Below are positions 39,853 through 41,799 of a stretch of DNA of 64,000 nucleotides, piece after piece (position 1 is the stretch's first letter; each line of letters opens with the position of its first letter). The notes under the pieces were generated by a model, which did not search any database, had not been told where the DNA came from, and was given only the letters and a program-made list of their open reading frames with translations. The position numbers and the translations under genes were made by a program. The stretch comes from Acidobacteriota bacterium (GTDB lineage Bacteria; Acidobacteriota; Terriglobia; Terriglobales; Acidobacteriaceae): assembly GCA_003225175.1 (NCBI GenBank), contig QIBA01000033.1:1-64000 (forward strand), written 5' to 3'.

Positions 39853-40101
39853 TTATTCCGCATCTTTTGTTTTGAGCCGCGACTTGTTCTCTTCGATGAA
39901 GGCGCGTAGTTCATCGACAGACCCCAAAAGTCGCATCCACTGCTCGTAATACAACGTGACAGGAAACCGGCCCAGACCATACACGCTTACTCCACCTTTT
40001 TCACTCACACGAAATTCCAGATTCCTGGACTTGCGTGATGTGAGCTTAGCTTCGAGTTCCGCGATTCGCGCTTTCAGTTGCTCAGGAGTTGGTTCAGACA
40101 T
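39853..40101 (-). CDS. Small conserved-looking hypothetical protein
   Basis: 82 residues from the ATG at 40101 (an upstream Met adds seven). Residues 4-22 form a charged helix (PEQLKARIAELEAKL). A small beta sheet follows (RNLEFRVSEKGGVSVYGLGRFPVTLYYEQWMRLL), then a C-terminal helix (VDELRAFIEENKSRLK). The alternation and well-formed helix ends make it a real gene in my judgement. The beta part looks like a compact domain seen in small uncharacterised proteins of soil bacteria. No function can be named. Confidence 0.65.
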   Translation of the reverse strand: MSEPTPEQLKARIAELEAKLTSRKSRNLEFRVSEKGGVSVYGLGRFPVTLYYEQWMRLLGSVDELRAFIEENKSRLKTKDAE

Positions 40102-40274
40102 GGCGAACATTGTATCGAGCAAGACCTATACTCGGGCAATCCGATCCTATTGAAGTCCCACAACGCTGACAGTATTGCGACGATACTGCGATACTCGCGC
40201 CCCATTTGTTGCAGAACGTAACCGCTGAGTCTCCTTTGATCCCGCTGATAAGAACAATCCGAGGCAAGCAAGAA

Positions 40275-40496
40275 TTAGCGGTTTACCGAGCGGGGATGGA
40301 AATCGCAGACGTGATCGTAGTGGCCCCGCAGCGCGTCGGCAGTAAAGCCAGCGCGAAGGGTCTTGCTACAGCGCGAGCACACGGCTACAAGCCGACGATC
40401 GTTACTGGCGGCAGGCCAGATCACCACTTCGGGCGGCGATAATGATCCGGGCTCCGCGCCCACCAATGTCCTTACGATGTGTTGGAACAATGTCAC
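40275..40496 (-). CDS. Possible small zinc-finger protein
   Basis: A frame of up to 73 residues whose C-terminal 40 look genuine: LVAVCSRCSKTLRAGFTADALRGHYDHVCDFHP. This has a CxxC knuckle followed 17-21 residues later by H-x4-C, as in small zinc-binding domains. The N-terminal part and the start codon are unclear; there is no ribosome binding site. A plus-strand frame overlaps. I rate it as possible only. Confidence 0.3.
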   Translation of the reverse strand: MTLFQHIVRTLVGAEPGSLSPPEVVIWPAASNDRRLVAVCSRCSKTLRAGFTADALRGHYDHVCDFHPRSVNR

Positions 40497-40647
40497 TGCT
40501 TACATCATCCGCCTGAAATGCGGTTCCGCGGCATCTCAAACCGGTCGCACGCGTTACTGCGGAACGCCATTCCTGTTACCGGCAGGGAAGCCCAAATTAC
40601 CCGGTTCCATCTTTAGTGCCGCTGGAGACGAAAGGGCGGCTGTCAGA
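40497..40647. other. Stretch with no assigned feature
   Basis: Together with 40102-40274 this is the rest of the roughly 550-base gap between the small hypothetical gene and the selenoprotein. I see only noise frames here. It is listed so that the gap is not mistaken for a missed gene. Confidence 0.4.
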
Positions 40648-41370
40648 CTAATGCAACTGGGACAAAGAGATCTTCAGCTCCTCGGGATGGAACCCAAAGG
40701 GGCCTGGACGGCTCTTGTAAACGATGCGTCCGTCTTTATCAATCAAATAAATCCGATCAGGCCAGCCGGTGTAAGCCTGCTCCGCGGTGTTATCGAAGTT
40801 ATCAATCAGCGCGGGAAATTTGATACCAAGCTTGCGCACGCACATGCCTGCAACCTGTTCGCGCTCTCCCATGCTCTTTGGGCTGGCAAAGACGACTCTA
40901 TCGCGAACATTGCTCTGCATCTGCCAGACGTCGCTGGGGTGCGCTTCCAGAATGTACAGGACGTAAAACTGCACACGCTGACCATATTCGTCGTAAAGCT
41001 TGTTGAGTGCGGGAACCTCCCGCCGAAATGGCGGTCAAGTGTAACTGCCGAAGACCAGGACTACTGGTTTGTCGTTCCGCAGAGATGCGAGGCTAACATG
41101 TGCGCTCTTGTCCAGAGTGGCAAGCGTGAAGTCTGGCGCAGGATCGCCGACGTTCAAATGTCCAGCACGGGCGCGTGTCCACATGGTTTCAAAGGGCGCG
41201 ATCAAGAAGATCGCCGAAGGCATCTTCATCATGAATCGCCCAAATTCCGCGGGCGATCGATGCATTGCGTGATTTACGGAGAAGAGAAGCGCAGCATACC
41301 CCACGATCAATAAGAGCAAAACCGCGCCTATGATGCGGTGCAGCATTTGTCGTTTGGCGGGTGTCTCCAT
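40648..41370 (-). CDS. Deiodinase-family selenoprotein (Sec encoded by in-frame TGA)
   Basis: 240 residues if the TGA at 41037-41035 is read as selenocysteine (Sec112). A membrane anchor at about 12-32 (IIGAVLLLLIVGYAALLFSV) precedes a thioredoxin-fold domain: VGDPAPDFTL, then KPVVLVFGSYT-U-PPFRREV, LYDEYGQRVQFYVLYI, LEAHPSDVW, and FPALIDNFDNTAEQAYTGWPDR with IYLIDKDGRIVYK. Vertebrate iodothyronine deiodinases have FGSCT-U-PPF and the same EAHPSD motif, so the alignment across the TGA is unambiguous. The two halves are in the same frame and no other stop intervenes. It is probably a periplasm-facing redox enzyme; dehalogenation is not implied. A 316-codon plus-strand frame overlaps it and is spurious. 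Confidence 0.88.
41000..41034 (-). promoter_or_regulatory. Putative bacterial SECIS element
   Basis: Immediately 3' of the TGA on the minus strand, bases 12-26 after it form GCGGG-AGGTT-CCCGC (41023 to 41009), a perfect 5-bp stem with a GGU-containing loop. In the E. coli fdhF SECIS the essential GGU loop lies at about 19-21 bases after the UGA; here it is at 18-20. A second possible hairpin, CCGCC-ATTTC-GGCGG, starts right after the TGA and would compete with it. Confidence 0.7.
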
Positions 41371-41436: not shown

Positions 41437-41799
41437 TTATTGAGGATGCGTCGACGTCCCACCAAGCCGATCGCAGCAGTCCGTCAAGGCCTTTTGCTCT
41501 GTAGCCGTTAGACTCAGGAACTCCACCCCGCAACGAAAACCAGAGCAATCTCGAACCATAGCGCTTACCCCGAGCCTCTGGCTGGATTCGGGAAGAATGA
41601 ACTCGATCTGTAGCATCTGGCCTACCTGCAGCTCAGCCGGAATATAGATCGCCATGCCTGCTTCCGAGAGGTCATGACTGCGTCCCTGCAGCACACAGCG
41701 GCGCTGCTGCACAACCGTGAACAGCTTGATCGGAAAGTTCACGCGGAAGCGCTGCGAGCGGCGTACACCTGTGCCCATATTGATTGACGAGGACGACAT
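41437..41799 (-). CDS. PilZ-domain protein
   Basis: 120 residues. The N-terminal RRSQRFRV supplies the RxxxR c-di-GMP-binding motif and HDLSEAGMAIY supplies the D/NxSxxG motif. A beta-barrel-like remainder follows (VGQMLQIEFILPES, RDCSGFRCGVEFLSL). PilZ proteins bind cyclic di-GMP and act on motility, secretion or polysaccharide export. It is a stand-alone domain without an effector part. It lies upstream of the selenoprotein gene on the same strand, 66 bases away, and is probably not functionally linked. Confidence 0.88.
   Translation of the reverse strand: MSSSSINMGTGVRRSQRFRVNFPIKLFTVVQQRRCVLQGRSHDLSEAGMAIYIPAELQVGQMLQIEFILPESSQRLGVSAMVRDCSGFRCGVEFLSLTATEQKALTDCCDRLGGTSTHPQ

Follow-up and report, generated by a model that had tools for sequence, protein, structure and literature searches.

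The 64,000-nucleotide stretch of DNA from a soil acidobacterium analysed here, referred to as the window, contains on its minus strand a gene which, judged by its sequence, is a member of the iodothyronine-deiodinase family (PF00837) and in which the UGA at codon 112 shows the kind of conservation typical of a selenocysteine (Sec) codon. The gene and its recoding site are located as follows.

40648..41370, minus strand: predicted selenoprotein gene of the deiodinase family (240 residues, Sec112, TAG stop codon)
41035..41037, minus strand: in-frame TGA, predicted Sec codon 112 (FGSYT-U-PPF), based on TGA conservation and Sec machinery in the genome

Read from 41370 to 40648, a single frame comprises 111 codons starting with ATG, the TGA at 41037-41035, and a further 128 codons followed by TAG. 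The first-pass annotation had described two minus-strand frames split by one TGA, and both coordinates and flanking text bear out that they lie in the same frame and constitute one gene. Its reading of a deiodinase motif likewise agrees with the translation: the text around the TGA is VVLVFGSYT-U-PPFRREV, and EAHPSD is also found in the protein. The observation of a TGA-interrupted deiodinase-like gene is thereby confirmed as real; standard annotation, ending at the TGA, would split such genes in two. When the window gene was compared with loci L049 and L053, dN/dS stayed under 0.1 both before and after the TGA; relative to L039, it was 0.06 downstream, with synonymous sites upstream being saturated. 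These ratios indicate that the half 3' of the TGA is under purifying selection. A plus-strand frame of 316 residues (40363-41313), lying antisense to this gene and without any match in Pfam, was discarded as a candidate.

The family assignment extends over the whole joined protein. PF00837 (T4_deiodinase) spans residues 10-239 (E value 2.8e-31, 109.1 bits, cut-off 27), which is the match across the junction that had been predicted for a search with the joined frame. The part behind the TGA alone scored 77.2 bits with PF00837; for the part in front of it, the Pfam scan gave no PF00837 match and just a weak one to AhpC-TSA. The best NCBIfam match was NF038285 (deiodinase_rel, deiodinase family protein; 199.2 bits, residues 50-236), which did not reach its curated cut-off of 250 bits and matched just positions 154-340 of the 347-position model. 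Within the PDB, phmmer returned mouse DIO3 (7.9e-20) and DIO2 (3e-18). AlphaFold2 was used to predict the structure from an alignment of 55 sequences, which took in 55 of the 58 distinct genes described below; the model had a mean pLDDT of 93.6 and a pTM of 0.88. In a Foldseek comparison of this model with the PDB, DIO2 (9h48) ranked first and DIO3 (4tr3) second, with TM scores by target length of 0.81 and 0.78, respectively, followed by ResA-type thiol oxidoreductases and, lower down, the 1-Cys peroxiredoxin AhpE. The window protein as modelled has the deiodinase fold. ResA/TlpA oxidoreductases, of which ResA is membrane-tethered, and AhpE share the thioredoxin-like fold and are the next-best structural matches, whereas their sequence match is weaker and mainly confined to the stretch around the active site; to our knowledge, they possess neither EAHPSD nor Sec.

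The loci used to assess codon 112 came from a scan of named genome contigs and from 200 sampled genomes belonging to the same family, of which the 30 best-scoring loci were taken, these 30 not being a random draw. The contig scan, performed with peptide patterns not touching the TGA, found 46 loci, the titles of which name Acidobacteria groups in 45 cases (two of them Bryobacterales) and Planctomycetota in one. Among the 77 loci examined, three do not cover codon 112. The 74 that do, a count which holds the window gene twice (L001 and L045) and some other genes doubled as well, show TGA in 73 cases and TGC in one (L025), with TAA and TAG absent, all three stop codons having been read through. 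The Cys form L025, from genome G056, encodes a protein 39% identical to the window protein. For the subsequent comparisons, four of the 77 strong-match loci that did not show the motif pattern were left out: L081, which nevertheless has TGA at codon 112, L093 and L094, where the match begins past the site at a contig end, and L097, where it is split over two frames. The 73 motif-bearing loci correspond to 58 distinct genes, 57 with TGA and one with a Cys codon. In the sample of 200 genomes, PF00837 matches were present in 81 and contained a TGA in 58; none of the match rows contained TAA or TAG. Across these homologues, the in-frame UGA at the putative catalytic, Cys-equivalent position is conserved.

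A predicted SECIS hairpin with a G-bearing apical loop lies just downstream of the UGA.

41009..41023, minus strand: SECIS-type hairpin, 6-bp stem, apical loop GGU (loop 41017-41015), based on codon bias and a recoding control

In the window, it comprises bases 14-28, counted after the U of UGA, which can pair into a 6-bp stem capped by a GGU loop; this arrangement appears similar to the element of E. coli fdhF, which has a loop GGU roughly as far from its UGA. The piece 3' of the TGA folds no better than its shuffles (z -0.5 to -1.1), and since its own fold energy is not unusual, the SECIS case rests on comparison. Specifically, the 57 distinct TGA genes display a strong codon bias in this region relative to usage elsewhere in the same genes, genes with another residue at a position being uncounted there: the codon for Arg116 ends in G in 47/56 (0.25 expected), that for Arg117 ends in G in 53/56 (0.25 expected), Glu118 is encoded by GAG in 53/53 (0.50 expected), the codon for Val119 ends in T in 49/51 (0.21 expected), and that for Pro120 in C or T in 53/53 (0.47 expected). 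A stem of at least 5 bp closing a GGT-bearing loop can be formed by 52 of the 57 genes; when the genes were recoded synonymously 200 times, such a stem occurred in 4.3% on average and in 17.5% at most. Five of these near genes fail the strict GGT-loop rule. By eye, five genes have GCT at codon 119, and in the four with CGG GAG GCT the stem is preserved and carries a GGC loop; L023 retains a stem with an AGUUG loop. Relatives with other residues at these positions form other stems around a GGU-bearing loop (e.g., L024, L098, L113, and L116). Among 42 more distant TGA genes, counted after dropping L124, already part of the family set, and L136, for which a wrong TGA had been selected, a stem of at least 6 bp around a G-bearing loop was found in 35, versus a recoded mean of 13.5 and a maximum of 25. 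GGT was in the loop of the longest stem in just 12 of these 35, with GGC, CGGGC, and others also being used.

The first-pass annotation had expected selA, selB, selC (tRNA-Sec), and selD in the genome, and all four were found. The genome, which has a size of 5.73 Mb and is 98.9% complete, carries tRNA-Sec on contig C44 (64.4 bits, gathering score 47; identified by ARAGORN as tRNA-SeC with anticodon tca), selB on C30 (377 bits), selA on C63 (554 bits), and selD on C38 (371 bits). Together with the conservation described above, this makes it very probable that the TGA at codon 112 is read as selenocysteine. The selD gene (L020, C38:136388-137308) has an in-frame TGA of its own, within VKAAG-U-ASKLSP, and is probably a selenoprotein gene itself. 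Of the 200 genomes sampled from the family, 53 contained both a PF00837 match bearing a TGA and selA over the cut-off, 5 the match only, 64 selA only, and 78 neither (Fisher p 2e-10, a statistic that ignores relatedness). As 64 of the 117 selA genomes have no TGA-form match, this gene does not explain in general why Sec is kept. Four of the five genomes with the match and without selA are incomplete (59-83%); in two of them tRNA-Sec scores 65-70 bits, in one it is borderline at 49 bits, and in one no match exceeds the gathering score. The fifth, G102 (98% complete), contains the TGA form and a borderline tRNA-Sec (50.2 bits), with selA not over the cut-off. In this genome (L139 / L083), selB seems to have no 5' part and lies close behind an unrelated frame of 846 residues, and TGA-form AhpD-like and deiodinase-like genes adjoin the apparently shortened selB; the locus represents either a decaying Sec locus, i.e., real loss, or a misassembly or assembly gap. 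In G056, the genome of the Cys form, selA and selB were below the cut-off, and the best tRNA-Sec match was borderline at 47.2 bits (gathering score 47), second-best matches elsewhere reaching 46.7-47.2.

The N-terminal part of the window protein contains a hydrophobic segment, as do the animal deiodinases, which have an N-terminal anchor.

41278..41334, minus strand: hydrophobic membrane anchor, residues 13-31, predicted N-in topology, based on hydropathy, charges, and the model helix

Its mean hydropathy is 2.6, three K/R residues precede and two follow it, and the predicted model shows a helix from residue 4 to 36. In 43 of 58 sequences, K/R residues are more numerous before the anchor than after it; numbers are equal in eight, and the bias is reversed in seven. 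This charge bias suggests a periplasmic location of the domain. The earlier proposal of an anchored periplasmic enzyme is thus reasonable as regards the anchor and the charge bias, while the placement in the periplasm is a prediction.

With DIO2 and DIO3, the window protein shares the fold, the motifs FGS-x-T-U-PPF and EAHPSD-x-W, and the position of Sec, whereas identity is only 30-32% and several functional residues differ. In DIO3, Glu200, His202, His219, Tyr197, Ser167, and Thr169 have been assigned roles in catalysis or binding, and Cys168 and Cys239 are candidate resolving residues (PMC12025243, PMC7506546). The equivalents of Glu200 (Glu142), His202 (His144), Tyr197, Ser167, and Thr169 are retained in the window protein, whereas His219 is replaced by Pro164, Cys168 by Tyr110, and Cys239 by Phe185. 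The family alignment shows, among others, Ser109, Thr111, Sec112, Pro113, Pro114, Phe115, Tyr139, Glu142, His144, and Arg206 to be invariant, and Tyr139, Glu142, and His144 were present in all 109 bacterial sequences of the tree set. In the set of the window family, the His219 position is Pro in 54/55 sequences, the Cys168 position (Ala in DIO2) is Tyr, Phe, or His in 55/55, and Cys is absent from the commonest residues listed for the Cys239 position. Among the 109 bacterial sequences, His at the His219 position was found in eight, including L148, and Cys at the Cys168 position in four. Cys177, the position of which is occupied by Leu in DIO2 and DIO3, is retained in 52 of the 58 distinct genes and in 25 of 29 planctomycete sequences, and in just 7 of 25 sequences of the wider phylum; L023, L024, and L026 have Phe there and L025 has Tyr. 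Any role of Cys177 is a guess. Because the equivalents of His219, Cys168, and Cys239 are replaced, "deiodinase" should be taken as a family name only for the window protein, and the caution on the substrate expressed in the first-pass annotation was justified. The residue pattern suggests that the window protein shares the selenol chemistry of the animal enzymes, is resolved by a different route, and probably acts on a substrate other than theirs.

It is well established for Sec decoding that SelB, together with Sec-tRNA, recognises a hairpin 3' of the UGA, which is then read as Sec. In the mechanism we propose, SelB with Sec-tRNA would bind the GGU-loop hairpin just 3' of the UGA, and UGA 112 would be decoded as Sec112, the N-terminal anchor holding the thioredoxin-fold domain in the periplasm. 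Sec112 would attack an oxidised or halogenated substrate, aided by the invariant Tyr139, Glu142, and His144, and the resulting Se-OH, Se-halide, or Se-S form would be resolved by the conserved Cys177 or an outside thiol. The first-pass interpretation as a deiodinase-like selenoprotein is supported by the PF00837 match across the junction, the Sec machinery, the TGA in 73/74 loci, and the hairpin; with high confidence, we consider the protein to be a selenoprotein of this family carrying out selenol redox chemistry of some kind, a statement that does not extend to one particular substrate. A peroxiredoxin- or thiol-reductase-like use of the predicted periplasmic selenol enzyme appears most likely, with somewhat better than even chances, followed by reductive dehalogenation of small aromatic substrates, for which we see perhaps one chance in four; thyroid-hormone-type deiodination is unlikely.

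In three of four regions of relatives that were examined, selD, selA, selB, a gene for an AhpD-like protein with a CPYU motif, and the deiodinase-like gene are arranged consecutively on the same strand within about 6 kb, tRNA-Sec preceding selD on the opposite strand. The fourth region was that of G102.

L140:961-7021 (G040): Sec island
L142:1915-7956 (G190): Sec island
L143:1816-7871 (G072): Sec island

By Pfam, the island proteins comprise SelA, SelB, AIRS, and CMD. A comparison over 3,000 bases showed L140 to be identical in DNA sequence to the KBS 83 locus L086, and parts of the island were also present in L071, L083, L087, and L088, with L087 being from Occallatibacter savannae. Beside two of the islands, frames resembling a transposase and a reverse transcriptase were recognised by eye. 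In the 53 genomes with both a TGA-form match and selA, the two are within 5 kb by hit coordinates in seven, far apart on one contig in three, and on different contigs in 43, the window's genome included. This genome also has an AhpD-like gene with CPYU and an in-frame TGA (L141, C41:80317-80826), which probably encodes a second selenoprotein; the TGA is followed by TTCCTG-CGGGTC-CAGGGA, a possible stem-loop that is present in relatives too.

Several alternatives to these readings were weighed. If the TGA were a true stop, the locus would encode two separate proteins or be a pseudogene of a Cys or Sec ancestor. Standard gene calling does end the frame at this codon, and the window hairpin alone folds no better than shuffles; against a stop argue the prevalence of TGA at codon 112 with no TAA or TAG, purifying selection downstream, the SECIS codon bias, and the presence of Sec machinery, which leave this explanation highly improbable. 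Sequencing error was rejected on the same sequence comparisons as stop, two proteins, and pseudogene; both error and pseudogene are very unlikely because the same TGA recurs in 73 of 74 loci and a SECIS-type hairpin accompanies it. Taking the protein as a selenoprotein, a true deiodinase or dehalogenase could use its selenol to strip iodine or another halogen off soil aromatics, as the animal enzymes do with thyroid hormones. DIO3 and DIO2 are its closest solved relatives by both sequence and fold, FGSxT-U-PPF, EAHPSDxW, Tyr139, Glu142, His144, and the GP turn are all retained, DIO3 His202, the counterpart of His144, matters for activity or substrate binding (PMC12025243, PMC7506546), and a few bacterial relatives do have His or Cys at the His219 or Cys168 position. 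Against this stand the replacements at these two positions and at Cys239 in the set of the window family and, among 25 recurring neighbour clusters from 42 sources, a minority of which was covered by a Pfam scan, the finding of no halogen-related cluster by eye; moreover, the authors describing the marine bacterial proteins expected a function other than thyroid-hormone deiodination (PMC1088965). On balance, we regard a true deiodinase or dehalogenase as possible but rather unlikely.

Equally tentative is a selenium-dependent peroxide or disulfide relay, in which the AhpD-like CPYU protein would give electrons to its deiodinase-like partner or take them from it. AhpD proteins are known to reduce peroxiredoxins. 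In 9 of the 58 genomes with a TGA-form deiodinase-like match, 99-294 bases separate the AhpD-like TGA match from the stretch matched in the deiodinase-like gene, and of the 26 genomes carrying the AhpD-like TGA form, 22 carry the deiodinase-like one as well (Fisher p 3e-10, a value that ignores relatedness). However, 36 genomes with the deiodinase-like TGA form lack the AhpD-like form, the window's genome has the two genes on separate contigs (C41 and C33), and shared Sec dependence could by itself account for the linkage. In addition, the AhpD-like proteins show by eye neither membrane anchor nor signal, whereas the deiodinase-like domain is probably periplasmic, which makes direct contact between the two doubtful. 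A family selenoprotein with some kind of selenol redox chemistry is the reading retained here.

Genes of the deiodinase family bearing TGA are known mainly from vertebrates and marine metagenomes; our counts show them to be common in one acidobacterial family (58 of 200 sampled genomes). A report from 2005 described Sec and Cys forms of deiodinase-like proteins from Sargasso Sea bacteria, together with bacterial SECIS elements (PMC1088965), and reviews from 2022 and 2026 list bacterial PF00837 selenoproteins with the motif UxxC, noting that what such selenoproteins do is for the most part unknown (PMC9312934, PMC13188914). A table published in 2008 gives no motif for them (PMC2398784). The Sargasso Sea/GOS proteins share PF00837, the active-site Sec, the SECIS element after the UGA, and the occurrence of Sec and Cys forms with those reported here (PMC1088965, PMC2398784). 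In contrast to the UxxC listed in the two reviews, the present motif is U-P-P-F without an adjacent cysteine, and the genes are from Acidobacteriota and in part located in a Sec island. A 2025 study reported three selenoprotein genes in Occallatibacter riparius, its main text not using the word deiodinase (PMC12013277), and our search of an open-access library found no paper combining deiodinase, Acidobacteria, and selenoprotein. The kind of gene has accordingly been known from bacteria since 2005; what merits further attention is the Sec island and the replacement of the resolving residues. The island in named isolates (KBS 83 and, in part, Occallatibacter savannae) offers an entry point to the role of the bacterial family, which bears on how the animal thyroid-hormone enzymes arose.

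In a FastTree phylogeny of 111 domains, DIO2 and DIO3 were placed inside the bacterial set, beside the planctomycete L148 (support 0.883). Together with L148, they belong to a 22-tip clade (0.907) that holds L023-L026 and is distinct from the clade of the window; the latter, with 57 tips, is sister to a 31-tip clade that surrounds the 22-tip clade. The tree says little about origin because inner support is partly low (0.447 at a 19-tip node), sampling is thin, and rooting was by midpoint. A search of plasmids gave one distant match, annotated as deiodinase-like, from Mycolicibacterium (28.9% identity). As a speculative extension to which we assign a low probability, a compact, possibly mobile Sec island of some Terriglobales-type acidobacteria might encode a self-contained selenium redox pathway, with the deiodinase-like protein being one reason for keeping Sec in these soil bacteria and the animal deiodinases deriving from the bacterial family.

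Two further frames flank the gene in the window.

41437..41799, minus strand: PilZ-domain protein, next gene upstream (PF07238, 3.8e-16)
39853..40122, minus strand: downstream frame of 89 residues without a Pfam match; only the window and L053 contribute to its neighbour cluster

The PilZ gene fell outside the recurring neighbour clusters of the 42 sources clustered, and by neighbour clustering and Pfam, the neighbours in the window (PilZ, the small frame, ileS, and lspA) gave no functional hint. A number of family genomes contain a second PF00837 type without TGA (e.g., G021:C67:155073-155504), in frames of mostly about 300-420 residues matching mainly profile positions 65-217. Some Planctomycetota (e.g., G626 and G714) have several TGA-form deiodinase-like genes per genome, many of them in longer frames, and some planctomycete TGA-form genes encode U-GPF instead of U-PPF.
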